NCBI GenBank assembly: GCA_039720395.1 | Contig: CM077832.1 | Span: 18,137,850 to 18,201,849, forward strand | From: Liquidambar formosana | Lineage: Eukaryota > Streptophyta > Magnoliopsida > Saxifragales > Altingiaceae | Length of the DNA stretch: 64,000 nt | Direction: 5' to 3' | Made by a program: the position numbers and the translations under genes | Shown here: piece after piece, positions 20,774 to 62,543 of the stretch | Numbering within the stretch: the first letter of the stretch is position 1 | How the letters are laid out: each line of letters starts with the position of its first letter | The notes under the pieces: model-generated | Told to the model about the DNA's origin: nothing | The model's input: the letters and a program-made list of their open reading frames with translations, nothing else | Database searches by the model: none

Positions 20774-20828
20774 ACTGCCAACTTCGTGTCTGTTTACAGG
20801 TAACTTACCATTTGTTGACTGGTAACTT
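20774..20828 (+). promoter_or_regulatory. 22-bp phased motif array 1 in the solo LTR
   Basis: Three copies of AC(T/A)G(C/G)(C/T)AACTT start at 20774, 20796 and 20818, exactly 22 bp apart, about 120 bp downstream of the TATA box. The third copy sits in TTGACTGGTAACTT, related to the palindrome GTTGACAGTCAAC seen in array 2. Confidence 0.7.
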
Positions 20829-21193
20829 TACCGTGTTACTAAGATTTTCTTCTCTAACCCAATCCTCCATCTGTATCACTTCTACAATCACTAAACCATC
20901 ATCACCACCACTCAAAAACCCCTCCATAGCTGCTGCACAAGATCATCCAACCACCAAAAATCTCTTTCTATGGGTTTGGGTGACAAAGAAAGCCAAAAAT
21001 GGTGGTTTCCACCACTTCCCATGTCTAACACTACAAATTTTCTCAAAACCCTACCATACACCCTTCCACAAACATCTCTCTTACAGATTTAGGGACTTAT
21101 TTTAAGGGAAAATCAGTGGGTGAACTTCTGCTTTTGCCTTGGGTAGCATTGGAAGTTAGTACAAAAATTCTGCTGCTGTTTTACTACATTCTG

Positions 21194-21248
21194 ACTGTCA
21201 ACTTTACATCTGTTGACAGTCAACTTCCCTCGGATTGACTGGTAACTT
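21194..21248 (+). promoter_or_regulatory. 22-bp phased motif array 2 in the solo LTR
   Basis: Three copies start at 21194 (ACTGTCAACTT), 21216 (ACAGTCAACTT, inside the palindrome GTTGACAGTCAAC) and 21238 (ACTGGTAACTT), again exactly 22 bp apart. Confidence 0.7.
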
Positions 21249-21786
21249 TGCTGTGTTAAAAAGTAATTCAACTCTATTAATTTATAATTTAACATGAGTC
21301 TATTTTAATGGCACGTTAGTGTATATATTAATTATATTAAATATAGTAAGCATTATAAGGCCATGAGAATTAGACGTTAAACCCTTAAAACACCATTTAG
21401 CTAGAGAGACTTTTTAGTTTAAGTATGATTTATTGATAAAGAATATTATGGATTTTAGGTTCTAAGTTGCGTTGGGATTTTTAGGAGTTTGATCGCGTGA
21501 ATCGTTAAAGGTTTTGGCTTGAGGTAAGGGAACTTGCACAATGTATCACCCTCTTTGATTAAATAAAAATAAATATGATTTTTATTCCTCTTTATTGAGC
21601 CAATGATTTATGGATAATTGTTTTCAAAATCGTTTCATTGTCAAAGTGTTATTTCTTATGTACTGTGGATCAAGCAAAAATAGTCATTTATTGAAATTGT
21701 TTTATATATGTGTTTGAATCTATTTTACTTATGAAAGATATTTGTCAAATGTTTTTTTTTGTATAAGTGTGAACTCTGGTTAGATT

Positions 21787-21863
21787 ATTGGTCCGTCCCA
21801 GCAGGGGATTTTAATACTGTTGGAAAATTGGTCCGTGCTAGCAGGGGATTTTAGTACTGTTGG
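21787..21863. repeat. Tandem duplication in the solo LTR
   Basis: Two 37-bp copies sharing GCAGGGGATTTTA(A/G)TACTG, offset by 40 bp (21787-21823, 21827-21863). Confidence 0.85.
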
Positions 21864-22619
21864 TCATCAGTACTGATGTAGTGTAAAGTCCCACGATGAT
21901 GGGCGCCTATTGAATGTGAGTCTAGCCAGAGGAAATACTTGTATGAACTGATGTTTTATTGATTTGTATCATCGATCAGTGATTTTAAAGTGATTTATTG
22001 AATGAATTGTTATCGAAAGTGTTTCAGTGTTATTGTTTATTGAATTGAAAGCAAGAAAATTACTTCTAAAAGTTTATATGTCTATCGAATTGAAAGAAAT
22101 GATTTATTGTAAAACTCTATCGTTTTGTTACTCATGATTTTTTTTAAAATTAATCGTGCGAATATGCTTGACCTCTTCCTGTATATATTGTGTAATGTTT
22201 TCTTGCTGAGCGTTATGCTCACCCCTTATATTTTTCCCCACAGATGATTAGCTTGATGTGAGTGGCTTCTGCGTACGAAGAGCTAGGGTGTCGACAGCTT
22301 GATCTGCTAGTTTAGTTGAAACTTTATTTTAGTAGTTAGAAGAATTTAATTTGCTGTCTCAGTGGATATTGTAGTAGGTTATTGGAGGTTATAATTTATT
22401 TTGATAGGATGTGGATTTATCCAGTTATTTCATTTAATTATTGAGACGTCCTTTAGATATGCTACAATTCAAATTTTATTGTGAATGGATTACTGGAGAC
22501 AAGTTTATTAGAGGTTGATTTTGTTAAGTGGTCTACCCTATGTAGGACGTAGTCTTATGTGGGTTATGCCTAATCATGTCGCCAAATCCAATCTTTTGGG
22601 TTTGGGGTGTGACAAAGAT

Positions 22620-22934
22620 GCCCTTCTATTAAAACATAGTAAAAAATAAAATAAAATAAAAAAACAAGAAGAAGAAGAAGAGAAGAAGCAGCAGCGGCGA
22701 GAGAAGGGGCCGGAGAAGCTTTCGCCATTATCTCCATCTCCCTTGGAGATGCACAGTCACCGTAGATCTGCATCGGAGTTTGAACAAAGCAAAAAAAAAA
22801 AAAGAAAAGAAAAAAAGCACGAAGAAGAAGAGAAGAAGCAGCAGTAGCAAACAAGAAGGAAAAAAAAGAAAAAAAGAAGCAAGCATGCGGAAAAAGAAGA
22901 GAAGAAGCAACAGCAGCAAGAGGAGGGGTCGGAG
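22620..22934. repeat. Purine-rich GAA/GAAGA low-complexity DNA
   Basis: Repeated GAAGAAGAAGAGAAGAAGCAGCAG blocks broken into shorter runs. Open frames are homopolymeric Lys/Ser or Leu/Phe on either strand and are not genes. Confidence 0.7.
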
Positions 22935-23340
22935 CTCCTCCCTCTCGTCATCCTTCCTTCTCCCCTTTGTTTTCATCTTCTTTTTTTATTTTTTCCCTTT
23001 TTTCTCTCAAACCTTCGTGCCTCCCCCCACTGCCGGAAGCCCGTCGCCGCAGCTCCTCCCTCTTGTCATCCTTCCTTCTCCCCTCTGTTTTCATCTTCTT
23101 TTTTTTTTTCCTCAAACCCTCGTGCCTCCCCCACTACTGGAAGCCCATCGTCGCCGCAACTCCTTCCTCTCGTCATCCTTCCTTCTCCCCTCTGTTTTCA
23201 TCTTCTTTTTTTTTTTTTTCTTTTTCCTCTCAAACCCTCGTGCCTCCCCCACACTGCGCGAAGCCCACTGTCAGAAGCCCGCTGCCGCAACTCTTCCCTC
23301 TCGTCATCCTTCGTTCTCCCCTTTCTCTCCTCATCCTCGT
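22935..23340. repeat. Minisatellite, about 3.4 copies of a 107-131 bp unit
   Basis: Units begin at 22935, 23053, 23160 and 23291 (partial), each with CTC(C/T)TCCCTCT(C/T)GTCATCC near the start, a T tract, and CCTCGTGCCTCCCCCAC-like sequence. Length varies mainly in the T tract. Open frames across it are artefacts of the repeat. Confidence 0.8.
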
Positions 23341-30031: not shown

Positions 30032-30562
30032 GTTTATGTTGTCCCAAGTAAACAACCCTAGAGGGGGGGTGAATAGGGTTATTGGCCAATTAAAAAAAAA
30101 ATGATAGCAAACTAAAATCAGGTTATAGCAAATAGAGGTATCTCAATAATAAACAGTAATGAGAATAAGAGAGAGAGAATGCAAACACAAGTTTTAACGA
30201 GGTTCAGCCTTCCCGCCTACGTCCTCGCCTCAAGAGCTCGCTTGAGGATTCACCAATCCACTATCACTCTCCTTCAAGGTGGAGCAGCAAACCTTTACAA
30301 ATCAAGTGCTTTCAATCCAACACTTGTTCAGCCACACTTCTTCAAGTGCAAAGAATGGGGTTATCACCAACCCTTGATTACAAGTTTGTAGAGATAAGAT
30401 GTGTCTACAAAGAAACTCTCTTTAAGAGTGAATAACACAGAAATTACAGCTCAGCTCTCTTCTAATTGATTGCTCAATGAATGCTCTTAATGAATTTAGG
30501 GCTAGAAGAATGAAAACAATGAATTCTCTTGTATTGATTCTCATAAATGCATTTGAATCATT

Positions 30563-30573
30563 GTTTATATAGG
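30563..30573 (-). promoter_or_regulatory. TATA box of the copia LTR
   Basis: The minus strand reads CCTATATAAAC. The motif array begins about 117 bp upstream. The same box is in the other LTR at 39004-39014. Confidence 0.75.
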
Positions 30574-30689
30574 CATTAGGCATAATATGACCGTTTGGTG
30601 CAATAAATGCCGGGAAAGAGCCGTTTGGTGGCATTTAATGCCTCAACAACCTTTCAAAAACTAGCCGTTGGAGTTCTGAGATCGCACAA

Positions 30690-30843
30690 TCAGTCGACTG
30701 AATACTCAATTCAGTCCACTGATTTGCTAAATCAGTCGACTGATTTGGGAATTCAGTGGACTGATTTGAGCAGAATCAAAAGACAAGAGCAGAGGACATC
30801 TTCTGCTTAAATGAGTCGACTGATTCAAGAATGAGTCGACTGA
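30690..30843 (-). promoter_or_regulatory. 21-bp phased palindrome array in the copia LTR
   Basis: Six copies of the 12-bp palindrome TCAGTCGACTGA or one-base variants start at 30690, 30711, 30732, 30753, 30812 and 30832. The first four are exactly 21 bp apart. The other LTR has the same array at 39131-39284. The array is upstream of the LTR TATA box in the U3 part. Confidence 0.9.
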
Positions 30844-31319
30844 TTTGGGCAGAAATGAACTTATAATGATTATATCACAAGTTTAAATCGATTAAGTTCA
30901 TTTGTATCAACTTATGCCTTGTTCAAGTGATGAATTAAGTTTACCCAAGGATCCTAAGGTCCATCTAGGTCAAGGGAGCGATCATTTTGAGCAATCAAGT
31001 ACATCAAAAACCTAATAACCTCACTTATAGCTATTTAAGTATCTTCATTGACGATGCTAGCTTGGTCTTGAGTGATCGTAGGTCTTTTGCATGCTTTCTA
31101 TGCTCGTATGCTTTTGTGCTTGATTATCCTTGATATCATAAGCATGTGTGCTTTGAGTTCCATGATATGCATATATCTTTATGCTTCTTTTGGATCCATA
31201 TGCTCGAGTACCTAGCTTTGATTATAATCTTGACAAATAAACCATTAGTACTTACATCGATCCTTTGTTATCATCAAAATCTCGGATATGCCCTTGGTTA
31301 TATAACCTTGGGGCCAACA

Positions 31320-31336
31320 ATCTCCCCCTTTTTGAT
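31320..31336 (-). other. Polypurine tract of the young copia element
   Basis: The minus strand reads AAAAAGGGGGAGATT immediately before the 3' LTR, the primer for plus-strand DNA synthesis. Confidence 0.85.
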
Positions 31337-31641
31337 GATGACAAACTATTGATGTATATGGCAGGTAGGGAAATAAAGCATATGATATATATAGAGCAAG
31401 CTCCCCCTCATAATATGCATAGTTGAAATGCAAGTAATAAGCAATGAGCACAAAGCATTGTAAAGCAAATAAACTGATTATAATCAACTGTGGAAATAGT
31501 TCAAAACATAACCAAAAAGTCATAAGTTAACAGTTATAGATAACTAGGAATGTGTCAAGTCATTGTGTGTTCAAAATAAGTTAGATGTTCAAGATACATC
31601 AATTCAAAAACTATCTCCCCCTTTTGTCATCAGACAAAAAG

Positions 31642-33066
31642 CTAGGGGTCCAAGTCAATATGCTCGGGAAGACCAGGTGCGTCCGCATCTTCAGGGGCAG
31701 GAGGTGGTGGTGGAGGCGGTGGTGCATTGCGACGGGCATATCGCTCAATGGCTGTCAATGAGTTACGCACAGTGCGTATATCAGTCTCTGTCCTGGCAAG
31801 ACGCTGGTCCACCTGAGTCGTAAAGATATCACCATAACGCTTCAAGGTGTCCATATCATTCTCGATTTGTGTCTGACGGTTCTCAAGAGCCAAGAGACGA
31901 GTGCCAATACCATCCATGGAGACCTGCAGACCCTGTATAGCTGTCAAAATGGTCTGAACACCAGCAGGAGGGATAGGTGGCTGCTGTGGAGGCTCAAAGG
32001 GAGGAGGCTCGAACGCAGGAGGGGGCTGTGGAGGCTCAACATCCATGCCATGCTCACCAGGCTCCTCATGTGGCTGCTGCTCTTCTTCACCAGGAGGAAC
32101 AGGGTCATCAGCCTCCTGTTCTTCATCGGTCACCTCATCCGGATCATCTTTCGGTACCCAACCCCTGGAAGTAAACTTGTAGTGCATTTGTTTAAGAGTC
32201 ATGTCGGAGTAGGTGTTGGTGTGAGAGATGGCGACTACGGCTTCCTCATCAAGAGGTATTTGGAAATGTTCAAAAACATAAGTCAGAGCGAAGCCGTAGG
32301 GGAGACTAGCCACTTTCTTCTTTTGGCAATCGACAATATGATTGGAAATGATAAAAGGTAAATCAATGGGAATGGTATTCATGATGCACCAGATAAGAAA
32401 AATGTCGAAATATGAGACATGGTCACGTCCGCCACCCCGTGGAAGGATGTTGTATGTAATCATGTGATGAATCAATCGAGCATTGAGAGTTAGTTCTTTG
32501 GCTTTGGGTTTAAAACGGTTTACAATATCATTCCGCCCACAGATCTGATTAAGGGCTTGGATAGGATCATACCCTTGAAAGTGAGTCCATTCGTTGGTCA
32601 CAAGGATTTGATGTTGACCACGAGGGATATGAAAGATTTGGGCAAGAAGGTTTTGATCCATAGATATAATTCTACCACCAACTTGAGACCAAAGGATGTG
32701 ATTATTAATATAGTCAAGATTGGTGTAAAAGATGCGCACAAGATAAGTATACATGGGTTTTTTCAGAAAAATGAATGAATCCCAACCCAAAAGACGGAAA
32801 TAATTTGCAATGAGAACGAAATGCTCTTCAAAGAAATCCAAAGGGGCATATTTACCGAAGATGACGGTGCGACGACTGAAGTCCTCATCAAACTTGCGCT
32901 GTGCATCGAGAGAGACAAACTCTCCGCCTTCCTCTTCGTCGGGTTGTTGTTCAACGGGTGGTTGCACCGGCAGTGGAGGAGGATTTGGAACCCTGGGTCG
33001 TAAGTTTCGCGATGAACCTTCACCGGTGTGAGGGCGTTTGGCTGGATTCTTCATCTTGGGAGCCAT
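31642..33066 (-). CDS. Accessory ORF of the copia element: putative plant transposon protein
   Basis: An intact 474-residue ORF follows pol in the same orientation, a position where Sireviruses can carry an env-like gene. Residues 1-55 are basic, then proline- and acid-rich. Residues about 60-300 form a globular region (FGKYAPLDFFEEHFVLIANYF, YLVRIFYTNLDYI, VGGRIISMDQ, IHHMITYNILPRGGGRDHVS) that I recognise as the 'putative plant transposon protein' (Transposase_32) type. Residues about 310-370 are acidic then proline-rich, 380-450 look like a coiled coil (heptads with LLALENRQTQIENDM), and the end has a run of prolines. I see no signal peptide or membrane segment, so it does not look like a true envelope. 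It has its own TATA box and an upstream operator-like array. Its function is unknown; DNA or chromatin binding is my inference. Confidence 0.85.
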   Translation of the reverse strand: MAPKMKNPAKRPHTGEGSSRNLRPRVPNPPPLPVQPPVEQQPDEEEGGEFVSLDAQRKFDEDFSRRTVIFGKYAPLDFFEEHFVLIANYFRLLGWDSFIFLKKPMYTYLVRIFYTNLDYINNHILWSQVGGRIISMDQNLLAQIFHIPRGQHQILVTNEWTHFQGYDPIQALNQICGRNDIVNRFKPKAKELTLNARLIHHMITYNILPRGGGRDHVSYFDIFLIWCIMNTIPIDLPFIISNHIVDCQKKKVASLPYGFALTYVFEHFQIPLDEEAVVAISHTNTYSDMTLKQMHYKFTSRGWVPKDDPDEVTDEEQEADDPVPPGEEEQQPHEEPGEHGMDVEPPQPPPAFEPPPFEPPQQPPIPPAGVQTILTAIQGLQVSMDGIGTRLLALENRQTQIENDMDTLKRYGDIFTTQVDQRLARTETDIRTVRNSLTAIERYARRNAPPPPPPPPAPEDADAPGLPEHIDLDP

Positions 33067-33149
33067 TGTTGAGAGAGTTTTGGAGGTTAGAGAGAGAGAG
33101 AAGTGAAAACGTCGCGGGAATGGGTGTGATTTGAAATGAAAAGCCGCGT

Positions 33150-33160
33150 GTTATATTTAT
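33150..33160 (-). promoter_or_regulatory. TATA box of the accessory ORF promoter
   Basis: The minus strand reads TATAAATATAAC, 84-95 nt upstream of the ATG at 33066 and 13 bp from the first palindrome of the array. This position suggests independent transcription of the ORF. Confidence 0.65.
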
Positions 33161-33172
33161 AGAATCGCAGAT

Positions 33173-33428
33173 TCAGTCGACTGAATCACCATTTCAGTCG
33201 ACTGAATTGTCCTGGAAATTGCATCATAGGCTACTGCCTGAATCAGTGGACTGAAAGTCCATTTCAGTCGACTGATTTGCCATTTCAGTCGACTGATTTG
33301 GCACATCAGTCGACTGATTTGCCCAGTGAGTGCAATCAAGAGCAGGGCCTGATTCAGTGGACTGAATAGTCAATTCAGTCGACTTAAATGCCCATTAAGT
33401 CGACTGATTTGACTTTTCAGTCAACTGA
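33173..33428 (-). promoter_or_regulatory. Ten-site, 21-bp phased palindrome array upstream of the accessory ORF
   Basis: Copies of TCAGTCGACTGA or close variants start at 33173, 33194, 33243, 33264, 33285, 33306, 33354, 33375, 33396 and 33417. Within each group of two or four, spacing is exactly 21 bp; the two gaps are 49 and 48 bp. The motif is identical to that in this element's LTRs, but the flanking sequence differs, so this is not a piece of LTR. Confidence 0.92.
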
Positions 33429-33535
33429 AACACTAGGTAAATCAATTTCAACCAAAATCTTTTGAGTGTGTGAGTGAAATGCAAAGCACAACATAGACAT
33501 ACATCAAGATAAGAGTAGAAGAACCAAGATATGCA

Positions 33536-36500
33536 TCAATTCACTACATCATGCATTAAACACATGCCAAGTTCTCTTTTAATGAAGTTAAAATGGTCTT
33601 CTTGAAGAGGTTTAGTAAGGATATCGGCCAATTGATGGTCGGTACCTATGAAATCAATCTCAATATCACCTCTTTGGACATGATCACGAATAAAATGATG
33701 TCTTATCTCAATGTGCTTAGTCCGTGAGTGTTGAATGGGGTTCTTGGTTAAGTTGATAGCACTAGTATTATCACATTTAATGGGAATGTGGTCAAAGTGA
33801 AGTCCATAGTCCTCAAGTTGTTGTTTCATGTACAACACTTGTGCACAACAACTACCGACTGCAATGTATTCGGCCTCGGTGGTTGAGAGTGCAACCGATG
33901 TTTGTTTCTTACTAAACCAAGAAACTAGTGAATGTCCTAGGAAATGGCAAGTCCCACTAGTGCTCTTGCGGTCATCTTTGCCACCGGCAAAATCTGCATC
34001 GGAATAACTAAGCATATCAAAAGAGGTATACTTAGAAAACCATAATCCAAGGTTAATTGAGCCACTTAAGTATTTAAAGATACGCTTAACGGCAAGCAAG
34101 TGAGATTCTTTAGGACATGATTGAAATCTAGCACATAAGCAAACACTAAACATGATATCGGGTCTTCTTGCGGTTAAATAAAGTAAACTTCCAATCATAC
34201 CTCTATATTTCTTTTGATCAATATTTTTACCCTTTTCATCCTTGTCAATCTTGATGGAAGTGCTCATTGGAGTAGAAAACTCTCTACCATCTTCCAATCC
34301 GTACTTTTTGAGTAGATCTTTGACATATTTGGATTGATTGATGAAAGTTCCTTCCTTTGTTTGTTTGATTTGAAGTCCAAGAAAGAATGTCAATTCTCCC
34401 ATCATGCTCATCTCAAATTCTTCCTGCATAATCTTAGAAAATTCTTTGCAAAGATTCTCATTAGTGGATCCAAAAATGATATCATCAACGTAGATTTGCA
34501 CTAAAAGCATATCATTATCAATGGTTTTAATGAAAAGTGTGGTGTCAAGTTTTCCTCTCTTAAAACCATTTTTGAGTAAAAATCCACTAAGTCTTTCATA
34601 CCAAGCTCTAGGAGCTTGTTTCAAACCATATAAAGCTTTTCTTAGTTTAAAAACATGATTTGGAAATTCATGACTTTCAAAACCGGGAGGTTGTTCAACA
34701 TAAACTTCCTCTTCTATGAAACCATTTAAAAATGCACTCTTGACATCCATTTGAAACAATTTGAAATTTTTATGACATGCATAGGCAAGTAACATCCTTA
34801 TGGCTTCTAGTCTAGCTACCGGAGCATAGGTTTCATCATAATCTATGCCTTCTTGTTGATTATAACCTTGGGCTACAAGTCGAGCCTTGTTTCTAGTAAC
34901 AACTCCGGATTCATCCTTTTTGTTTCTAAATACCCATTTAGTTCCAATTACTCCATGGTCATGTGGTCTAGGTACCAAGGTCCAAACCTTGTTCCTTTCA
35001 AATTGATTGAGTTCTTCTTGCATAGCAAGGACCCATGATTCATCATTTTCAGCTTCATTAATGTTCTTAGGTTCAATTTGAGATAGGAAAGCAAGATGAT
35101 CACATAAATTTCTCATGGAAGAACGAGTTCTTACCCCACGTGAGGGTTCACCTAAGATTTGATCTTTAGGATGATTCCTCACAAATTTCCAAGTCTTGGT
35201 GACATCCGGATGGAGTGGAGCATTTTCAGCTTCAACTTCTTCTTCCGGATTCTTGTCTTTAATAACTTCATCTTCTTCCTTTTCTTTGCCTTTGTCTAGT
35301 GGATCTTCTTTATCATTTAGACTCAAGGTTTCAACTTGTTCTTGCAAGCTTGTACCTACATCATCATCATCATCCACATATTTCTTGGGTGCAAGAGGGT
35401 TAGTTTCATTAAATACAACATGCATTGATTCTTGAACAGTTAAAGTTCTCTTGTTAAACACCCTATATGCTTTACTCTTCATGGAATAGCCAAGAAACAC
35501 ACCTTCATCGGATTTAGAATCAAATTTGGAAAGTTTATCTCTATCATTCAATATAAAGCATTTACAACCAAACACTTTAAAGTAACCTATGTTAGGTTTC
35601 TTATCATTCCATAGTTCATAAGGGGTTTTACTGAGTTTAGATCTTAATAAAACTCTATTCATTACATAGCATGCGGTATTAACGGCCTCGGCCCAAAAAT
35701 ATTGAGGTAAAGAGTGTTCATTTAGCATGGTTCTAGACATTTCCTCAAGTGATCTATTCTTTCTTTCAACCACACCATTTTGTTGAGGAGTTCTAGGAGC
35801 GGAGAAATTGTGACCAAAGCCATTCTCATTACAAAATTGTACAATATCCTTATTGACAAATTCGCTTCCTCTATCACTCCTAACATGTGTAATGGTATAG
35901 CCTTTCTCATTTTGGACTCTTCTACAATATGTCACAAATGTAGCATGAGTCTCATCTTTATGTGCAAGGAAGAACACCCATGTATATCTAGAGTAGTCAT
36001 CAACAATTACAAATGCATAATGCTTCCCTCCAAGACTTGCAATTGCAATAGGTCCAAATAGATCCATATGAATGAGTTGTAAAGGTCTAGTAGTTGAAAT
36101 ATGAGGCTTTGATTTAAAAGAGGACTTGGTTTGTTTTCCAAGTTGGCATGCACTACAAACTCCATCTTTTGAAAACTTTGCTTTTGGTAAACCTCTTACA
36201 AGTTCATGCCTAGAAAGTTTTGAAATTAAATCCATGCTAGCATGTCCAAGTCTTCTATGCCATAACCAATGATTTTCGTTTAAAGCGGAGAAGCAATGTA
36301 CATTTTGTAATGCGATTTCTTCAAACTCTATAGCATAGATGTTACCAATCCTATATGCAACAAATAGGGTCTTATCTTCATCTCCAATTATGCATTTATT
36401 GGATTTAAAGGTAACTCTATATCCTTTATCACATAATTGACTAATGCTAAGGAGATTATGCTTTAAACCATCAACTAATAAAACATTTTCAACACAAAGT

Positions 36501-36673: not shown

Positions 36674-36689
36674 GCATACCTACACAAGT

Positions 36690-38420: not shown

Positions 38421-38460
38421 ATCGTTCCTCGCAAGACAAATATGTCAAATGCTAGAGGTT

Positions 38461-38474: not shown

Positions 38475-38476
38475 AT

Positions 38477-47246: not shown

Positions 47247-47304
47247 ATGCACGTACGCACATATGAAAAGCACGTACGTGCATCACATATGTACGTGCGT
47301 GCAT
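47247..47304 (+). promoter_or_regulatory. Second 21-bp phased array in the gypsy 1 LTR
   Basis: ATGCACGTACGCACAT, AAGCACGTACGTGCAT and ATGTACGTGCGTGCAT start at 47247, 47268 and 47289, again exactly 21 bp apart, in the transcribed part of the LTR. Confidence 0.88.
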
Positions 47305-47737
47305 GTCCTGTTTTTTACGAATTAATCTCTTTTTCTCTTTTGTAGGCAGTGTAAGTGTTCCTCTTATACTTTAGATCTTCTTTCTTGTACATATATCCTC
47401 GTATTGATTCTTCTTTACTCTTTGTAATTGCGTGCCATCGTGATTTTGTATAAATGCTTGGTTAGCGGTTAAGTTTGATTAAACCCTTTTTAATTAAAGC
47501 CAATAAGTGTGTGTGGGGGCCGAATTTCAGCCGGACGCAAGTGGGTGCCTAACACCTTCCCATTTGCGTACCCTAGCTTCGAACCTTGTTCCTCTTGGTG
47601 ATGACGAGTTGGGCCTTTGCTAGGGATCAATTAGTTCCCGAGGCCAAAATCGGGTGGCGACTCCCTCTCCGCCCTAACCATCCATGGTTGGTGGCGTACT
47701 CCCGAGCCGACGTGGTGAAAGGACACGGCGCTCACAA

Positions 47738-52015: not shown

Positions 52016-53503
52016 GGACATGCTTGGGATCGACCCCACTATAGCATAGCATCACATCCCTATTAGGGAAGGAGCGAGTCCTATCAAACAAAAACTAAGA
52101 ACAATGGCACCAGAATGGTCGTTAAAGGTCAAGGAAGAAGTAACTAAGTTATTAAAAGTGGGGTTCATCAAGACGGTAGATCAAGCAGATTGGATAGCCA
52201 ACATCGTTCCGGTACCAAAGAAGGATGGAAAGGTGCGGGTGTGCATCGATTACAGGGATCTTAACAAGGCTGCCCTAAAGAGGACTTCTCCCTACCTCAC
52301 ATCGACGTATTAGTGGACAATACAACGGGGAGTGCTTTAATGTCGTTCATGGATGGATTTTTAGGATATAACCAAATACAGATGCCACCGGCAGATATGA
52401 CTAAGACCACCTTTACAATTGGGTAGGAGACGTATTGTTACACGGTAATGCCATTTGGACTAAAAAACGCCGGAGCCACGTATCAGAGGATGGCTACCAC
52501 GCTACTTCATGATATGATGCACCAGGAGGTGGAAGTGTATGTCGATGATATGATTGTCAAGGCAGAAACTCGAGAAGGGCATCTAGAGAACTTGAGGAAG
52601 TTCTTTGGACGAATCTGGGAGTACAGTTTGAGATTGAATCCGCAGAAGTGCACGTTTGGGGTCACGTTAGGAAAGTTGTTGGGGTACATTGTGAGCAGTA
52701 GGGGCATCGAAGGACATCCAACAAAGGTCAAGGCAATTTTGGAAATGCCACCTCCAAAAACAGAGAAAGAGATCAGGGGATTTCTAGGGCGATTACAGTA
52801 CATTAGCCGCTTCATAGCCAAATTAACCCCCACCTGCGAACCCATTTTCAAGCTGCTTAGGAAAGGGGAACCTAAGGAATGGAACGAGCAATGTCAACAA
52901 GTTTTCAAAGCCATCAAAAGATACCTCCTGAATCCCCTGGTATTAGTTCCTCCACGCCCTGGTAGACCTTTGTTACTCTATCTGTCCATCTTCGAGGAAG
53001 CTTTAGGAAGCATGTTGGCACAAGAAGATGATCGTGGTATTGAACATGCGATCTATTACCTGAGCAAGAAACTACAAGGCTACGAGGCAAAGTATAATGC
53101 GATAGAGAAATCCTGTTTCGCTTTGGTATGGGCTGTACAGAAACTGAGGCACATTCTGCTAAATTTCGAGGTATGGATAGTGGCGAGAATGGATCCGCTT
53201 AAATACTTGTTTGAGAAACCAGCTTTGAATGGTCGCCTATCTCGGTGGTTAATTTTGTTGGCAGAATTTGAACTTGTATATGTAACACAAAAGTCTATTA
53301 AAGGGGTAGCCGTTACCGAGTATTGCGCCGAACACCCAATCTTGGGATATGGACTAAACGATGAATTTCCCGATGAGAACCTCCTAGTTGTCAAATGTGA
53401 CGAGGCGTGGAAGATATATTTCGATGGGGCTTCGAACCAGTACGAAGATGGGGTAGGGGTTTTGATAATAGCTCCCGATGGTTTCACATGCCGCGATCAA
53501 TAA
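52016..53503 (+). pseudogene. gypsy 1 reverse transcriptase and RNase H
   Basis: RT motifs: IVPVPKKDGKVRVCIDYRDLN (about 52205-52270), then a one-base loss near 52275-52280 that shifts frame, GFLGYNQIQMPP, MPFGLKNAGATYQRM (52448) and VYVDDMIVKA with the catalytic YVDD (about 52537). RNase H of the gypsy type follows (EALGSMLAQEDD, IYYLSKKL, YNAIEKSCFALVWA). A second RNase H-like domain starts at WKIYFDGASN (about 53410). Stops replace expected Trp or Gln codons, for example at about 52425. It is not translatable. Confidence 0.9.
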
Positions 53504-55143
53504 AATTGAATTTTCTGAATTCTAACAACACGGCAGAATATGAGGCGTGCGTCGCTGGACTAGAAGCCCTGTTGGCATTGGGAGTCAAGGAAGTGGAGGT
53601 ATACAGGGATTCAGCCTTAGTAATATCTCAAGTGCAGAGAATATGGAGGACCTGAGAAGAACACCTAAAGCCCTACCAAAGCTACCTAGAGAACCTGACC
53701 TAGAAATTCCGGACAATAACTTTCACTCCTTTACCTCGAGCTCACAACCAATTCGCCGACGCCTTGGCTACTTTGGCTTCCATGATTCAAATACCCCCTG
53801 AAACCCAGGTAAAACCTTTGACCGTCCAACAAAAGTTTAGACCCGCACATGAAGAAGGGATCTTGGTAATTGACGGAGAGCCAGATGATGGGCACCTTTG
53901 GTATTTTGACGTTTGGAATCTCTTGGAAAAAGGGGAGTACCCAGAAAATGCCAATAAGAAGGATTGTAGGGCATTAAGGCTGTTCGCCACACAATTTATC
54001 ATCTGCGGAGGGAAATTATTCAAGAGGTCTTATGATGGGATACACCTCCTCTGCGTAGACCGCGGCATTGGAGAAACACTCATGAGGGAGGTGCATAAAG
54101 GGGAGTGTGGGTCATACATGAATGGAAGAATGTTGGTTAAGAAGCTACTAAGGTTGGGATATTACTGGACAACTATGGAAACTAACTGCGTGCAGTACGT
54201 CAGAAAGTGCCATCAATGCCAAGTGTACGCCAGTGCAAACTACATACCACCGGTGGAATTGCATCAACTGGCGTCTCCCTAGCCATTTTCAGTACGGGGA
54301 ATAGACATCATCGGAGAAATTAAGCCATCTGCAACCGGGGGGTACAAATATATTCTGGTAGCAATCGATTATTTCACTAAATGGGTGGAAGTGGCAGCAT
54401 ATGTGGAGTTGAAATCGAAACATGTGGCCAAGTTCATCGAAACCAACATAATCTGCTGGTACGGAGTACCCCATGAGATTATTTCAGACAACGGAACTCA
54501 CTTTGAAGATGAGGTCAAGAAGTTATTCACAAAGTTCGGTATCCAGCATCACAAATCCTCACCCTACAGGCCCCAGACCAATGGAGCTATGGAGGCTGCC
54601 AACAAGAACGTCAAAACAATCCTCAGCAAAACGGCAGTAACTTACAAGGATTGGGTGGAGAAGCTTCCTTATGCATTGTGGGGATACTGGACGTCTGTGA
54701 GGACTTCCACAGGTGCTACGCCATATTCATTGGTATATGGGATGGAAGCTGTGTTGCCCGTAGAGCTAGAAGTGCAGTCCCTTAGAGTTGTATTGGAAAG
54801 TTAGATTCCGGAGGTGGAATGGGCAAAGGGGCGATATGAACAGCTAGCACTATTAGAGGAAAGAAGGCTCAAGGCATTATACCATGTGCAAGGTTATCAG
54901 CGCCGAATAGCTCGAGCTTTCAATAAAAGGGTTAGGCCACAGAACTTGAGGGAAGGAGATTTGGTGCTTAAGGAATTTAGGGCACCTGTGTTTGACCCTC
55001 GAGGGAAATTTAAGCCCAATTGGGTTGGGCCCTACGTCATTAAGACAATTTACCCAGGAGGTGCAGCCAAGTTAATGGATGGTGATGGGAACGAGTTGGT
55101 GAACCCAATTAATATGGACAGGCTCCGTAAATATTATGTATAA
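53504..55143 (+). pseudogene. gypsy 1 second RNase H tail and integrase
   Basis: After a frameshift near 53500, the second RNase H continues (NNTAEYEACVAGLEALL, RDSALVISQV). Integrase follows: a zinc region (EVHKGECGSYMNGR ... CVQYVRKCHQC, with Tyr where the second His is expected), core motifs RGIDIIGEI, IISDNGTHF and NGAMEAANKN (D, D, E), and a C-terminal segment LVLKEFRAPVFDPRGKFKPNWVGPY ending at 55143. Stops at about 53653, 53701, 54280 and 54802. Two RNase H domains, the second next to integrase, mark the Tat group. Confidence 0.9.
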
Positions 55144-55314: not shown

Positions 55315-56613
55315 TCACTTTTTCCTCGCCTTTGGCTCATCTTCTGCTTCCCTTTTCCTTTTGTGTTCTTCTTCTTCTTTTTCTTCTCTCTCCATGTCAG
55401 TGAACAGCCAGTTATAGTCGGATCTGGGGGGACTGATCACTTCAGAAAGGGTGACGGCCCAATACACTGCTTTGTTATACCAGTCATTCTCGACACGATC
55501 CACATGGATAGGTTTCCAGGGGCAGGTGTAACCAAGGTGTCCCCATTTGATTGGATCTTGGCGTAATCCTTGCTGACGACGGATGCGTATAGGAGAATAG
55601 AAAGAGACCTCTTTGAGACCAATTAACATGACGCTATGGGGGAGAATCAGATTCCGAACAGCATAAGAAGTCCTCCACCAGGGGCAGAGCCAGCGAATGT
55701 TGTGGCAAGACATGGATTCCAGCAAATTCCAGGTTTGCTCGACATTAGGAAAAGGTTTGATGACCTTCCGGTGGCGATAATGTTGAGGATGGTATGTCCA
55801 GACGCTCATGGCTGGGTCTTCAACCAACTTTAAACGTTCGAACAACCAAATCTGCGTCGCAAAGAAAGAGGGATTAGGATTTTCAGCAGCCCATGCACGT
55901 ACGTACATAAACAGTGCACGTATGTGCATGCACCATACATATACAAAAAAAAAAAAAAAAAAAAAAGAGAAAGAAACCTGTAAGAGGAGGGGGCTTTCGC
56001 CAAAGGAGAAGCTTTCGCTGCGCACCACGTTGTCCAGACCATTAAGGGTATCCGCCAGGATCATCATGCTAGGATTGAACTCCTTGAGCGCAGGAATCAT
56101 GCGCATAACCAAAGTCTCTAGTCGAGATGTCTCATCCAAGAAGAAAAGAGCAGCTAGAGCGCAGTAACAGGCCGCGCGCAAGTAATAAGTTCGGAGTTGA
56201 CCCGTGGGAGGGATAGGGCGAGAAATAAAATATTCAGATAGCCTCGCTATATCAACCATAAAATCTTTTGTCCATCTTTGAACCAGGCGGGTAGAAAGTC
56301 TCAGGAACCGAGCGACTTCTTCGGACGAAACCTTTTCTGTTGAAGGAAGGAGCAATCCCCTGGAGCTAGTTCGCCCGAGGATGCCCCCGAAGTCTTCCAA
56401 TGTCAGGCACAGCTCATTGAAATTGAAACGGAAAACATGGCGCTTGGGTTTCCAATACTCCGCGGCAACCAACAAGAAGGTGTAGTTGACCCTCACTCGG
56501 CAGTAATCAAAGATACAAGGAAGGCCGAAGGCATCATTAAAATCCTCCCGTGCGCGTACGTCAAAGGACAGGAGCCACTGCTTGACGGCCCTAACGAAGG
56601 AAGAATCGTCCAT
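55315..56613 (-). CDS. Antisense plant mobile domain (PMD) gene of gypsy 1
   Basis: Two exons on the minus strand: 56613-55978 (212 codons) and 55851-55315, joined by a 126-bp phase-0 intron (CAG/GTTTCT...GCGACGCAG/ATT). This gives about 390 residues from MDDSS. Removing the intron restores the conserved PLLLQ/IWLFERL junction. The aminotransferase-like PMD fold is recognised by FRFNFNELCLTLEDFGGILG, CALAALFFLD, ADTLNGLD and IWLFERL. The C-terminus is charged (EREEKEEEEHKRKREAEDEPKARKK), possibly nuclear. PMD proteins such as MAIN/MAIL1 act in silencing and genome stability, and the domain is often carried by transposons. The intron is also open, so an unspliced longer frame exists. The motif array and TATA-like box lie just upstream. 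No frame damage, although pol of this element is dead. Confidence 0.82.
   Translation of the reverse strand: MDDSSFVRAVKQWLLSFDVRAREDFNDAFGLPCIFDYCRVRVNYTFLLVAAEYWKPKRHVFRFNFNELCLTLEDFGGILGRTSSRGLLLPSTEKVSSEEVARFLRLSTRLVQRWTKDFMVDIARLSEYFISRPIPPTGQLRTYYLRAACYCALAALFFLDETSRLETLVMRMIPALKEFNPSMMILADTLNGLDNVVRSESFSFGESPLLLQVSFSFFFFFFFVYVWCMHIRALFMYVRAWAAENPNPSFFATQIWLFERLKLVEDPAMSVWTYHPQHYRHRKVIKPFPNVEQTWNLLESMSCHNIRWLCPWWRTSYAVRNLILPHSVMLIGLKEVSFYSPIRIRRQQGLRQDPIKWGHLGYTCPWKPIHVDRVENDWYNKAVYWAVTLSEVISPPRSDYNWLFTDMEREEKEEEEHKRKREAEDEPKARKK
55893..55929. promoter_or_regulatory. Palindrome motifs inside the PMD intron
   Basis: ATGCACGTACGTACAT starts at 55893 and GTGCACGTATGTGCAT at 55914, 21 bp apart and in phase with a degenerate third position near 55935. 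Confidence 0.75.
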
Positions 56614-56714: not shown

Positions 56715-56772
56715 ATGCACGTACATGCATAACCCAAGCACGTACATGCCTATGCCATGCATGCATGTGCAC
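56715..56772 (-). promoter_or_regulatory. 21-bp phased palindrome array upstream of the PMD gene
   Basis: ATGCACGTACATGCAT, AAGCACGTACATGCCT and ATGCATGCATGTGCAC start at 56715, 56736 and 56757, exactly 21 bp apart. This is the LTR motif of the same element, about 100-160 bp upstream of the start codon. An upstream-extended open frame through here (HAWHRHVRAWVMHVRA) is only the motif read as codons. Confidence 0.85.
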
Positions 56773-57059: not shown

Positions 57060-57533
57060 TCAGCGCGGGTCATGAAGGGGTGTCTGAACGGGTGACATAG
57101 GAATATCACCATCACCTCCATCATCATCACCGTCACCATCACCATCACCGTCGTCGTCACCCCCAAACCCATCCCAGTCCTCTCTTGAAGGGGCCTGCTC
57201 CGCGATCACCAGCTTGCGTAACAGGCTAGTGACCATCACCTTCAAACTCCCCACCATTCGTATGAGTTTCGATGCCTCCTCGCGAGTAAGCTGTAAGCAA
57301 GGGGCAAGGGAAGATCGTTAGTATTGGCATATTTGTTCATTTTGTATATATACCCTAACAAATGCAGGAAATAAGCTCATCGGGCGAGCGTCCTCCGCCA
57401 TCGGATAGCCATAACACCTATTCAGCTTCGGAATGTCCTCCTCTATCGCCAAATCCGAAGTGACATGCATGGGGACGGTCCATTCAGGGAGGAGCGGGTC
57501 CCGACCTGCCGGAGCATCTGCAGGTGGCGCGGC
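57060..57533 (-). pseudogene. C-terminal exons of a second antisense gene, cut by gypsy 2
   Basis: Two minus-strand exons: 57533-57354 (60 codons, after acceptor TTTTTTGTAG) and 57290-57060 (77 codons with stop), separated by a 63-bp intron (AGG/GTATAT...GCTTACAG). Both are phase 0. The first contains PEWTVPMHVTSDLAIEEDIPKLNRC; the second LTREEASKLIRMVGSLK, then a run of Asp/Gly repeats. I do not recognise the family. It lies upstream of the PMD gene in the same orientation, so it is a separate gene or an alternative upstream product. Its earlier exons are missing because gypsy element 2 begins at 57566, just beyond the acceptor. Confidence 0.6.
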
Positions 57534-59598
57534 CTACAAAAAAGAAAAAAAATGCTTGAAATAAGTGTGAACCCACGAAAAAGACGCGTGGAGCCCACAA
57601 GGTTTTGGCAAAAATATAAGGGGGGGTTTAAAGACAACAAACAAAAAGGGAGTCGCCACCTCATTTTTTAGGGAAAAGAGGAAAACCACAAAAATATTTT
57701 ATTTTCAAAACCACATGACTCCATTAAAGGGAAAGCAACGTCTTTGAAACCAGAAAATTGGATCCGGGGGCTAAGTTATGACGTGGGAAGGTTCTGGGCA
57801 AAAACCCATAGGCACCCACATCGCCCGAGTTGGTCTCTTAATTTGATTGGGCTAACTTAATATCTTTTCCACTCAATATCATCATATATCATCACAAGGC
57901 AGCATGCATATCATATATTTCATCCAATCATCTCATGCACAATCACTCAAATAAAACAAAACAGAAAAAAGAAGAAAAGAAAAGAAAAACCTAGGATACT
58001 TGGATCCTAGAACGGACTTGAGCCTCACGAAGAGCGCCTACGTACCATGCAGCGAAATACATGGATCAAAGTCCACGTAGTTCGAAAAGAATAGGGTTAC
58101 AACCTAATACAAACCTATGGTAAATACCCTAGGTTTCCTTATTTGAAAGTACATTGATTTAATCCAAAACTGAAAACTTCCACAAGAGGAAAACTTTGAT
58201 AAAAACCAGAATTTATTATTGAAGGAAACCTTTGATAATTACCATAAGCTTGTATTAAGAAGTAGCCCTAGGAGGGAGAAGAGAAAAGATAGAAAAAAGA
58301 AAGGTGAATTGGGGCACCTTCAAACCCTACTTACCTGAGCACACAAGCTCCAATCATTAGCCATTTCAGATCATAGCAGCCCTATTTGCAATAGGACAAG
58401 CATTGTACCTGTTTGCACCCTTACAAGTGCACAAAATCATGCAAAGAAAGCAATATGCAAATCTGGACAGAACCTTGACAAGGCCTAAAATCATCCATTA
58501 ATCATGCAAACAACAAGAATAATGAATAACTAAAGACTCTAACTCAATCCTCCATGCAATGACTCAACTAACATGCATAAAAACCTATGAAAGACACACT
58601 AACAAGCATAAGAGACTCCAATAACATCAATAAACATGATAAAAAAGCATACTCTAATGAAAAAGATAATATTTTATGTAAAATATGAAAATAAACCTTC
58701 CTACGGCGAGCTTTCTTAAGCGAAACTATCCTAGGATAATTTCACGTAAGGAAGTCATTATGGGGAGGTGTAATCAGCATATCCTACGTAAAATATATAC
58801 CCTAGAACACAACAGAAAAGATTTCATGCTTAAACACATCACCGAAGACTCTCATGCAAAACCTTACTCAACGAAAAGGATAATTATCTTTAGAAAAGGA
58901 TAATGTCTCCAAAAACCCTATAAAATATACTATATGAATGCAAACCTAGCATGATTCAACTATATGCAGCATATATAGAATGACTATGATGAGCAACAGC
59001 TCAAAAAGCTAAGCTAAGCATGCTGTATAAGACCTATGCGATTTCAGGGTTATCGAAACCCTAATCTCACAAATATGCATAAAAACCTACTAAATGACTC
59101 TAAGACATGCTCAAATTATCATGAATATCATTCATATAGCATATATTGACTAACAAGAACATCCACACATGATAATAATCACAGCAACCTAAACATGTGA
59201 ACTATGCATGATTTAAGAGGATAGAACGAATAAGGCTATCAAACCCTTGGTAAACCAGGGATTATCAAGCATATAAAGCCATAAACTATCCTAAAATCAT
59301 TCATATAACATCATGTAGACATTGAATTCCATCCATAAGAAGAACTATTGCATGCACCATAGCTATCTTAGAAGGAGAAGAAGAAAGAGAAGAAGAAGGA
59401 GCAGAAATTCATGTTCAGCATTGAAGGGGTAGGCTTACCTCTTGTAGACTCTTCTTTGTCTTCAATCCTCTTGTTTCCTTGCTTGCTTGGGGTTGAAGGG
59501 CCTCCTCTTGAAGTCCTTCTATCTCTCCAAACTCGTAGCTCCCTCTCTCTCTAAATGTAAAGTGCAATTAACCTCCCCCTATGTGCTGAATATCATGT

Positions 59599-59610
59599 CC
59601 TTTATATAGA
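59599..59610 (-). promoter_or_regulatory. TATA box of the gypsy 2 LTR
   Basis: The minus strand reads TCTATATAAAGG. The phased array starts 187 bp upstream. Confidence 0.65.
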
Positions 59611-59796
59611 GAACTGACCCCCTAAACCAATGGCTAGGATTAATTCATTAAATAATGATCCTAGGGCTATTAGAGACTCTCTTGGAGCTCAAATAACTCA
59701 AACCTACACACTCCTAAGCTGAGACAAGTTGTTTTGGTGGAGGAAACCGTCAAAAGAGGGAAAGAAGAGTCAGAAGTTGACTTAAAGAAGGACTCC

Positions 59797-59874
59797 TCGG
59801 GTGATCAACTTGCCCCAGACGGTTAGCCGTCTGGGCTTGGATGGCTGACCGTCCAGCCCCGAACGGTTACCCGA
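59797..59874 (-). promoter_or_regulatory. 22-bp phased pseudo-palindrome array in the gypsy 2 LTR
   Basis: Four 12-mers, TCGGGTGATCAA, ACGGTTAGCCGT, ATGGCTGACCGT and ACGGTTACCCGA, start at 59797, 59819, 59841 and 59863, exactly 22 bp apart. Each is close to ACGGTTAACCGT in one or the other direction. Confidence 0.85.
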
Positions 59875-60582
59875 GGGCTTTCCTTGTTTCACTCCGGTTC
59901 TGACTCCTACTCGCTGTAGAAGTCCTAAAATGCTCAAATTAAGTCCGATTTTGACGAAATAAAAGCCAAAACGACCGTGTTTCGAAGGGGAACACATTTT
60001 TAAGTATTTTGGGACAAAAATCCTCAATCATGGGTGCATGGTTGGGTTTTACAAAGGTGGTTAACCATGGTGCCTCACCGTCGCTAAGCTGGGTTTGTAC
60101 ACGAGGTCGAACCGAATGCTTTCCCAATCGAAAATTGATCTTTCTAAACATGTTTAGGACATAAATAAAGCCCAATTGAAGTTAAATGAGAGAAAATTGG
60201 TTGGGTCTTATGAGTCAATTTGAGCAAACCAAGAAAGGGTCTTTTAGCCAACCCGAACCATTACGAGCCGAATTGATCTTAAACCATTAATTCATGAAAT
60301 TGAACCTATATATAGACTCTATATACTCATATGAACTTGATGGGACGACTCGGGATTCATTCCAAGGTCAAATGGAAAATATACGGTTTAAAAGACGATT
60401 ATGCCCTTAAAGTCGCAAAAGTTCTTATTGACCATCGAAATGAACTCTAAATCACTTCAAAATTCATACACATGATATTCTATGCCATAGAAACTCAATG
60501 CAAAAGACTAGACTAAAAAAGGACTCAAAATCCTACATGAAATGATATGTCCTAGCTAAGGTGACAAAAATGGGGTGTGATA

Positions 60583-60597
60583 GAAGCCCCTCATTGG
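60583..60597 (-). other. Polypurine tract of gypsy element 2
   Basis: The minus strand reads CCAATGAGGGGCTTC directly before the LTR, which sets the element's orientation. Confidence 0.7.
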
Positions 60598-60639
60598 TGA
60601 ACAAGTTTCACTTGCGAGCCAATGATAAAAGAACAACCC

Positions 60640-61020
60640 ATTTTTGTTTGATGGATTAATCTCATTAATACCAACAAACTCAAATGGAATCAAAAGGATA
60701 GACTTCGTCATATCCAAGCATGCGACGATTTCATTGAAGCAAAGAATTGAACGCATACCAACATTCATTGGTGCGCTCGTGCAAATGTCTGCACTAATTG
60801 CATTAATGATATAACAACACATTTTGTTTGATGGATTAATCTCATTAATCCCAACAAACTCAAATGGAACCAGAAGGATAGACTTCGTCATATCCAAGCA
60901 TGCGACGATTTCATCGAAGCAAATAATTGAATGCATTTCTATGCATGCCAACTTCGTTGGTGCGCTCATGCAAATGCCTTTACCATGCACTAATTGCATT
61001 AGTGATATCCACATGGTCTT
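60640..61020. repeat. Tandem duplication of a unit of about 180 bp in the 3' UTR
   Basis: TTTGTTTGATGGATTAAT starts at about 60643 and again at about 60823. The two units are highly similar. Open frames across it are repeat artefacts. Confidence 0.85.
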
Positions 61021-61168
61021 CTCATGACGCAAAGCTAGTTGCACTAGTGCATCACACGGTACCCTACCAATTTCATTGGCATTCTCAAAACGAGTTATTT
61101 CATAACTCATAAATCATCATTTTATGTGAATTATTGGTGAATTGAATGTCCATCAATTCAAAACCAAG

Positions 61169-61690
61169 GGCATTTCATGCCAGTCTCACTGGGGATAACA
61201 AATGTGGTGAGTTATTTCATAACTCATGACTCATCAAATTATGATTTCATGCCACTTTCAGTGGAAACAACAAAGATATGGAGTTATTGCATAGCTCATG
61301 TATCATTTCATGTGAAATTGTGCCACTTTCCGTGGAAACAACAAAGACAGGGAGTTATTTCATAACTCTTGAATCGTCATTTCATGCCACTTTCTGTGGA
61401 AGTAACAGAGACAGGGAGTTATCTCATAACTCATGAATCGTCATTTCATGTGAAATTGTGCCACTTTCTGTGGGAACAACAAAGACGGGGAGTTATTGCA
61501 TAACTCATGGATCGTCATTTCATGGGAAATTGTGTCACTTTCTGTGGAAGTAACAAAGACGGGGAGTTATTGCATAACTCATGGATCGTCATTTCATGGG
61601 AAATTGTGCCACTTTCTGTGGAAGTAACAAAGACGGGGAGTTATTGCATAACTCATGGATCGTCATTTCATGGGAAATTGTGTTTATCAC
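61169..61690. repeat. Tandem array of 74-82 bp units in the 3' UTR
   Basis: About seven units share CCACTTTCTGTGGAAGTAAC, GGGAGTTATTGCATAACTC and ATCGTCATTTCATG. The rightmost three are nearly identical, the leftmost most diverged. Confidence 0.88.
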
Positions 61691-62260
61691 ATGATATGAG
61701 ACCCAATTGCAAGTCAATTGATTCAAAATCAAGCTCATTTCTTATCATTTTATGTGAAACTATCCTTATCACATGGAATGACAATGTACTGGGAGTCATT
61801 CAACTCCAAATCAAGTGCATTTCATGTGAAATTGTCTTTATCACATGACATGATAATGTATTGAGAGTCCTTCAACTCAAAATCAAGTTCATTACTTATC
61901 ATTTCATGTGAAATTATCTTTAACACATGAAATGACATTGAATTGAGAGTTAATTGATTGGAAATCAAGCTTATTTCATGTCATTTCATGTGAAATTATC
62001 TTTATCACATGATACAACATTGATTTTGAAAGTCAATTGATTGAAAAACAAAGTGCATTTCATGCCCTCTTCACAAAGATAGCAAGTTACTTCGTAACTA
62101 GCATAGCTTATGAATCGTCATTTCATGTGAAGTTATCTTTATCACATGATTAGCAAGTCATTTCATGTGAAATTATCCTTATCACATGATATGATATCAT
62201 TATCATCTCCCAGAGAATTGACTTCCAAGACTTGAAAGTCAATCAATTCAACACTAAGCT
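61691..62260. repeat. Diverged repeats with TTTCATGTGAAATTATCTTT
   Basis: Many copies of TCATGTGAAATTATC(T/C)TTATCACATGA, itself hairpin-like, alternate with TCAATTGATT(C/G)AAAATCAAG. This is a degenerate continuation of the 3' UTR repeats. Confidence 0.75.
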
Positions 62261-62465
62261 CATTTCATGAGAAAGCCATTTATCATGGCCATTGCAACTC
62301 CTCGTTATGCGGGCGAATACAATCACCAAGATTCAAAAATTTCATTGAAACTTGATAAACTTGAGGGCTATATTCATCCCATAACTCAAGGATTGCACAA
62401 AAAGTCAATTTGGAGAAGTTTAGAGGTCGCAAGCGCGCGAAACGGGGCAAACGGGCAAAGCGGGC

Positions 62466-62543
62466 TAGGGTGACCATCTGCCCTCAGATGGTCAACCGTC
62501 CAGGGCAAGACGGCTGACCGTCCAGGGGTGGACGGTTACCCGA
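62466..62543 (+). promoter_or_regulatory. 22-bp phased array upstream of the gypsy 2 antisense PMD gene
   Basis: TAGGGTGACCAT, ATGGTCAACCGT, ACGGCTGACCGT and ACGGTTACCCGA start at 62466, 62488, 62510 and 62532, exactly 22 bp apart. These correspond one-to-one, in order, to the four sites of the LTR array at 59797-59874, while sequence outside the arrays differs. Confidence 0.88.

Follow-up and report, generated by a model that had tools for sequence, protein, structure and literature searches.

Four long terminal repeat (LTR) retrotransposon families in a 64,000-nucleotide stretch of the Liquidambar formosana genome (C13:18137850-18201849, in the following the window) carry arrays of short palindromic or imperfectly palindromic sites, phased at 21 bp in copia and gypsy 1 and at 22 bp in gypsy 2 and a solo LTR. 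This was proposed in an earlier note on the same DNA and is confirmed here. In the three families with an accessory gene in the window, the array is common to the LTR and the accessory promoter. The architecture is real and under constraint, as seen in motif, pitch and positions, in a motif that diverges less than its spacers across genomic copies, and in one motif that occurs in two superfamilies. With a probability of roughly 0.7, we interpret the arrays as transcriptional operator arrays of the enhancer type for a dimeric trans-acting factor, co-regulating the genome and accessory promoters.

Sites were located by motif alone, and the pitch was not used; no strand is assigned to the arrays. 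With the copia motif TCAGTCGACTGA (≤2 mismatches) 22 sites were obtained in the window, every one of them within the copia element, a Sirevirus (30037-39760, minus strand; 5' LTR 38477-39760, 3' LTR 30037-31319). The 5' LTR array (39131-39284) consists of four units at 21 bp, a 59-bp step and two units at 20 bp (intervals 21, 21, 21, 59 and 20), and the same array is present in the 3' LTR (30690-30843). At the accessory promoter, ten units in blocks of two, four and four (33173-33428) follow each other at 21, 49, 21, 21, 21, 48, 21, 21 and 21 bp. The gypsy 1 motif TGCACGTACGTGCA (≤3 mismatches) has 15 sites, 11 of which form four 21-bp arrays: three units each in LTR array 1 (46501-46556), LTR array 2 (47248-47303, ~555 bp downstream of TATA) and the promoter of the antisense gene PMD1 (56716-56771), and two units in the PMD1 intron (55894-55928). 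LTR array 2 and the intron array extend the earlier list. For gypsy 2 (GACGGTTAACCGTC, ≤4 mismatches) 6 of 13 sites form two triplets at 22 bp, one in the LTR (59818-59875) and one at the PMD promoter (62487-62544). Likewise, 6 of 20 sites of the solo motif GTTGACAGTCAAC (≤3 mismatches) form two triplets at 22 bp (20770-20826 and 21190-21246). Two corrections apply to the earlier note: the palindromes of gypsy 2 and the solo LTR are imperfect, and of ATGCACGTACGTGCAT there is just one exact copy.

In 100 dinucleotide shuffles no array was found for any family, with 0 pairs at the respective pitch and 0 triples at any pitch from 10 to 60 bp. All four families were also recovered by a scan given neither motif nor pitch (pitches 16-60 bp; unit lengths 12, 13 and 14), in which a spacer filter had no effect. 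Of its 19 matches at other pitches, 13 read the same arrays in a shifted register and 6 lie elsewhere. For the three unit lengths, sets of 20 shuffles had totals of 13, 8 and 1 matches, with pitches of 21 or 22 bp absent among them. One stray 21-bp and one 22-bp match in low-complexity ATATCG repeats (~1950-2190; the latter at 2122) were dismissed. A stricter pair scan (pitch 12-60 bp) retrieved the best-preserved arrays, with 15 pairs at 21 bp (one in the ATATCG repeats), 8 at 42 bp and at most 2 at each of the other pitches, compared to 0-1 pairs in each of 12 shuffles. Within the window the unit motifs are 0.91, 0.78, 0.71 and 0.72 identical in the four families and the spacers 0.44, 0.43, 0.28 and 0.47. 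Since motif identity exceeds spacer identity in all four, palindromes and spacing were kept rather than a whole tandem unit.

The copia accessory open reading frame (ORF; 31642-33066, minus strand, 474 aa) belongs to Pfam Transposase_32 (PF20167, E 7.7e-18). It starts with the first ATG after the TATA box, in the context AACAATGG, behind a short leader without upstream ATG. Antisense gene PMD1 of gypsy 1 (PF10536; 55315-56631, minus strand) has a predicted intron of 126 nt (55852-55977); its domain match (E 3.3e-07) scores 30.2 bits, less than the 34.9 bits set by Pfam. Gypsy 1 has a second antisense gene, seen as two exon-like stretches (57060-57540, minus strand) that correspond to the downstream portion of a second PMD gene in two genomic copies, L041 and L042. 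The stretches are best read as putative 3' exons of such a gene, severed by the insertion of gypsy 2; the insertion site (57060-57566) is in an intron, just upstream of a splice acceptor. The PMD gene of gypsy 2 (62831-64000, plus strand; PF10536, E 1.3e-14) runs off the window, with predicted splice sites delimiting exon 1 (62831-62974) and exon 2 (from 63541); its predicted intron holds a 159-bp repeat in 1.9 copies (63086-63383). The PMD genes of gypsy 1 and gypsy 2 match each other (36% over 53 aa, E 2.3e-4), so that calling the four elements unrelated was too strong.

TATAAA is present on the expected strand in all three accessory promoters; its distance to the array is 11 bp in copia (33156, minus strand), 57 bp in gypsy 1 (56653, minus strand) and 24 bp in gypsy 2 (62569, downstream of the array). 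The same applies to the three non-solo LTRs at ~120, 131 and 211 bp: copia at 39005 (minus strand), gypsy 1 at 46688, ~130 bp downstream of array 1, and gypsy 2 at 59601 (minus strand), ~210 bp downstream of the array. The window background is 0.21 TATAWA per 100 bp per strand. In gypsy 1 and gypsy 2 the best alignments of LTR and PMD promoter run in the same direction with the TATA boxes opposite, which is possible because palindromic sites permit either orientation.

For the genome-wide searches the host assembly (717,955,123 bases, 718 Mb) was used with reversed motifs as controls, counts of exact pairs being lower bounds. Exact copia-motif pairs at 21 bp occur at no fewer than 289 places, compared to 0 for the control. 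With a free gap of 1-31 bases (pitch 13-43 bp) 490 places were found; the 50 at the top of the list divide into 28 at 21 bp, 21 at 42 bp and 1 at 20 bp. As a sample we took all C1 places listed for the exact 21-bp pair, i.e. 20 stretches of 10 kb, in which 147 of 196 intervals measure 21 bp, 5 measure 20 bp and 1 measures 42 bp, the remainder being block steps of 48, 49, 58 and 59 bp. An accessory ORF is present in 12 stretches, with an array just upstream in 12/12 and an LTR array within the stretch in 11/12; as the stretches were selected by the array, this cannot show that every accessory gene has one. Across these 12 promoters and that of the window, motif columns differ by 0.061 and spacers by 0.210 (0/5000 permutations). 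Selection for an exact pair favours low motif divergence, and the count was therefore repeated away from the selected pair. The LTR arrays of 11 copies gave 0.028 for the motif vs 0.086 for the spacers (1/5000), and the outermost promoter block, in which 2 of the 13 copies have an exact pair, gave 0.076 vs 0.167 (143/5000), a weaker difference that still holds.

The promoter context is preserved as well: in 12 of 13 Sirevirus promoters 11 bp lie between TATA box and array (32 bp in L023), and 93-96 bp separate TATA and ATG in 13/13. The central dinucleotide of the units in these promoters is CG (80), CC (22), TG (10), CT (9), GG (2) or CA (1), CC and GG being mutual mirror images. The motif persists in copies with a diverged accessory protein (L023, 67-71%; L028, 66-85%; L025, 27-29% identity); these are the sole sufficiently diverged copies and were selected by the motif, and are thus silent on how often it changes.

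Pairs of the gypsy 1 motif were found at ~970 places or more (reversed control, 0). In L041, a gypsy 1-type copy with PMD1 exons 72% and 91% identical to those of the window, six arrays are distributed over the PMD1 promoter (one), the PMD1 intron (one), the second antisense PMD gene (two) and the 3' LTR (two). Its intron array has three units and occupies the same place as in the window; LTR array 2 (7263-7318) and the distance from LTR array 1 to TATA are shared, too. L042 has arrays preceding both PMD genes and in an LTR between them, an arrangement that does not correspond to one simple element. For the solo motif, at least 33 places with pairs at 22 bp were obtained, compared to 0 in the control. 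L043 belongs to a related family: its LTR and a portion of the solo LTR that does not include the array share 86-87% identity, and its sites are paired at 22 bp. Its interior gave no match to the proteins tried.

The copia motif is not private to one family as had been assumed. Seven of the 20 stretches (L018, L021, L027, L032, L034, L035 and L036) contain neither an accessory ORF nor a copia LTR and have an LTR in common (77-98%), with both LTRs and a readable interior in L035 only. L035 is a Ty3 chromovirus, complete in structure and devoid of an accessory ORF. Its LTRs are 98.3% identical, and gag, protease, RVT_1, RT_RNaseH and integrase were found, next to a weak Chromo match under the cut-off (E 5.6e-04, 20.2 of 25.1 bits). 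Three ORFs span 2099-6893 of the internal region 2044-7060, leaving no room for an extra protein. Six copia-type units in its LTR are spaced at 21, 21, 21, 49 and 21 bp, the spacing of a copia accessory-promoter block; compared with that block, the seven L035-type LTRs are 0.93-0.96 identical in the motif and 0.38-0.47 in the spacers. L038-L040, picked for L035-type spacers, share the L035 LTR. L038 (1865-8160; LTRs 99.96% identical, interior 1.5 kb) is a very recent insertion of a probably non-autonomous LTR relative of the chromovirus; its interior gave no match to the proteins tried, chromovirus pol not being among them. Finally, Sirevirus-like L025 combines copia-like LTR pieces (72-74%) and the same motif and pitch with the distant accessory match given above. 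The occurrence in L035 and L025 shows that the motif is not bound to one element family or one accessory protein. The earlier note named motifs equally frequent in elements lacking accessory ORFs as a finding that would speak against it; in part this was encountered, in L035 and its six LTR relatives among the 20 stretches.

In the operator arrays proposed here, each palindrome would be the site of a dimeric, sequence-specific DNA-binding factor. The step of 21-22 bp, i.e. two helical turns, would bring neighbouring dimers to the same side of the double helix and allow cooperative binding. Copies in the LTR and at the accessory gene would join the promoter of the genomic RNA and the accessory promoter(s) into one regulon, for which activation appears preferable to repression. 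Several observations weigh against this interpretation. The steps between blocks (48, 49, 58, 59, 94 and 111 bp) are mostly not whole helical turns. TATAAA is missing from the four PMD promoters of L041 and L042, where PMD1 has CATAAA and PMD2 none of the variants tried. The TATA-like words found in the solo LTR (20466, 20651 and 20700) all lie upstream of both its arrays. A related solo LTR (~10840-12176; target site duplication (TSD) ATATT, by eye), with 61% identity to that of gypsy 1, keeps just a remnant site of the array. Arrays in further family copies were found genome-wide for copia, gypsy 1 and solo; the strict gypsy 2 pattern is not enriched, with 2 matches over both strands vs 14 in the control, so that the evidence for this family comes from the window, though both matches look like gypsy 2.

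Two explanations nested within the operator-array interpretation differ on who reads the arrays. We give slightly less than even odds to one or several host transcription factors, perhaps one per motif, in which case the elements would have converged on or captured the sites and the accessory genes would reuse the enhancer. The copia motif and pitch in L038 and in L035 with no accessory ORF point in this direction, as do the preserved motif between diverged spacers in the copia promoter and the seven L035-type LTRs, and solo-type L043 without a coding match to the proteins tried. A MYB-core-like sequence is present in the gypsy 2 units and a W-box-like one in the solo units. A host reader is also in accordance with four published Sireviruses that keep LTR palindromes without an ENV gene (PMC2829016; here and below, papers are cited for the passages covered). 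On the other hand, four motifs in one architecture demand several host factors that bind as phased dimers, or one factor family.

Somewhat less probable, and put forward tentatively, is binding by the element's own accessory protein (PMD or Transposase_32), which would activate or de-silence its family in the manner of VANC, with gene-less elements as parasites in trans. This is supported by arrays at the three accessory promoters of the window, in 12 Sirevirus copies selected by the array, and at both PMD genes of L041 and L042, extending the earlier observation of one array in LTR and accessory promoter. In the 2010 survey, palindromes are upstream of ENV in 9/9 elements with this gene, compared to 0/4 without (PMC2829016). 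A C-terminal heptad-repeat, coiled-coil-like segment of the copia Transposase_32 protein, equalled in 1 of 300 shuffles, fits a dimer, and PMD has a sub-threshold helix-turn-helix match (E 0.06-0.1). VANC targets occur in the intron of its own gene, too, comparable to the PMD1 intron array. Against this explanation stand the motif in gene-less elements and in L025 with its accessory match of 27-29%, a predicted fold of pLDDT 37 that gives no DNA-binding fold, and a single hydrophobic stretch (score 1.96) in the copia protein that leaves an envelope-like role possible. The AlphaFold model in question, of 332 accessory residues on their own, was not used. Sharing with a gene-less chromovirus weakens the accessory-protein model, which stands nevertheless because use in trans is possible; the earlier proposal that the protein reads family-specific arrays is not upheld. 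We consider rather unlikely a more far-reaching version, in which dimeric, sequence-specific PMD or Transposase_32 activators or anti-silencers read the arrays of Ty1/copia and Ty3 trans-acting regulons, both in the LTR and at their own promoters, while gene-less chromoviruses and non-autonomous elements acquired the array and parasitise the Sirevirus factor.

A role of the palindromes as RNA or DNA hairpins, small-RNA sources or decoys is improbable. In maize, the palindromes of Sireviruses are hot spots of small RNAs (Bousios 2016, cited after PMC10760457), and 21 and 22 equal small-RNA lengths; yet the accessory-promoter arrays are upstream of their own TATA box, where present, and thus outside that transcript, and hairpins do not require a fixed 21-bp step. 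Neutral tandem duplication or slippage, for which partly duplicated-looking blocks could be quoted (the four-unit blocks of copia LTR and promoter are 83% alike over 81 bp), can practically be dismissed given a motif that diverges less than its spacers within and between copies and a pitch preserved across superfamilies.

The window copia is a Sirevirus. The element is complete, with LTRs 99.5% identical to each other, TSD TAAAC, primer binding site (PBS), gag and pol domains and the polypurine tract (PPT) AGGGGGAG-AT/TG. The terminal AGGGGGAG (31322-31329) is followed by AT and TG, and extra copies are found at 31401 and 31615 (minus strand). Its layout corresponds to the palindromic RM boxes described by Bousios et al. 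in 2010 in the Sirevirus LTR upstream of TATA, with more upstream of the ENV gene (PMC2829016). RM boxes are common, not universal (13 of 21 surveyed elements), and so is their CGG-CCG core (12 of 13 RM-bearing elements), which is not defining (PMC2829016). The window copia has CAG-CTG in its place and the published exception Tnd-1 lacks CGG-CCG as well; the signature is also carried by the gypsy 2 units. Compared to the Vitis RM motif CGGTCGACCG, the copia core CAGTCGACTG differs at two mirror-image transition positions only (PMC2829016). The RM paper, as far as covered, treats Ty1/copia only, whereas our Ty3 elements with PMD genes have the layout as well and a chromovirus shares the copia motif. 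In the text of that paper, figures and supplements apart, a search for spacing terms led to no mention of a pitch.

Except for copia, LTR boundaries in the window were set by eye. Gypsy 1 is a decayed Ty3 element starting at 46357 (5' LTR 46357-47737, plus strand; PBS from 47739). It has a second RNase H (RVT_3, E 5.1e-07, 53401-53655) between RT_RNaseH and Integrase_H2C2, by which Tat/Ogre elements are defined (PMC6317226), and the PMD extra ORF that is typical, not universal, for them; according to Neumann et al. (2019), 57% of Ogre elements have PMD and 74% of SIRE elements an extra 3' ORF (PMC6317226). Nested in gypsy 1 is gypsy 2, a Ty3 element known here from its 3' LTR (57566-60584, minus strand) and PMD gene, with pol outside the window; the left LTR end has no PBS, the right end a PPT-like tract. 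Between this LTR and the PMD promoter (61171-62200), tandem repeats of 74 and 82 bp that contain TTTCATGTGAAA and ATCACATGAT palindromes resemble those described for the 3' region of Tat/Retand elements. The solo LTR (20429-22614, plus strand) is flanked by TSD AAGAT on both sides. Apart from these elements, an imperfect 2.5-kb inverted repeat (4896-7377) is 85.6% identical to its own reverse complement.

Pfam matches above noise are Transposase_32 and PMD/DUF7745; DUF1985 or DUF287, the domains of VANC, are not among them. No homologue of the copia accessory ORF was found at E 0.001 among 7991 scored candidates. The search of solved structures gave no meaningful match, NCBIfam none above cut-off, and viral contigs none. 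As a weak control consisting mostly of fragments, bacterial assemblies yielded 13 copia fragments, none with a pair of similar palindromes at 21 or 22 bp.

Similar to our arrays, the targets of VANC in VANDAL elements, whose anti-silencing was described by Hosaka (2017) and Sasaki (2023), are family-diverged short motifs arrayed in noncoding regions, including the regulator's own intron (PMC5735166, PMC10398659). In contrast, VANC motifs are arrayed in the same orientation and are not palindromes, and VANC, which carries DUF1985/DUF287 and not PMD or Transposase_32, has proven binding. The copia motif is also not confined to the encoding family, as it occurs in a chromovirus without the gene. 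Antisense genes were covered by Vicient and Casacuberta (2020; PMC7264820) and Vicient (2025; PMC11963269): the Grande gene23 and Retand ORFs share a nuclear location or predicted DNA binding, but encode gene23 or Transposase_28, and no palindrome array is described in the parts covered. Genes that share a promoter motif depend for their expression on the host PMD proteins MAIN and MAIL1, and so does the silencing of transposable elements (TEs) (PMC7156037, PMC5418596); both proteins are encoded by host genes, and the passages covered describe no phased palindrome array. Ikeda (2017) speculated that PMD captured by MULEs serves anti-silencing (PMC5418596). A group of sunflower Tekay chromoviruses has a nuclear extra protein of its own (PMC11728184), for which the L035 interior offers no room. 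As a maize copia palindrome is also common in Helitrons (PMC10760457), sharing across superfamilies as such is already known.

The copia case, with palindromes in the Sirevirus LTR and upstream of the accessory gene, has likewise been known since 2010 (PMC2829016). In open-licence literature, from which subscription papers are mostly absent, the passages covered contain no report of arrays at Ty3 PMD genes, of a pitch of two turns or of one motif common to Sirevirus and chromovirus. Within this literature, the exact pitch looks new, as does the occurrence of the layout in Ty3 elements with PMD, where two antisense PMD genes both have an array.

For the role of envelope-like and PMD genes in plant retrotransposons, phased arrays offer a direct and testable handle. 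One motif and pitch in a copia element and a chromovirus would mean either that a common host factor is exploited or that one family feeds on the regulator of another, and the two alternatives lead to opposite binding predictions. The PMD arrays also bear on MAIN and MAIL1, the host PMD proteins in TE silencing.

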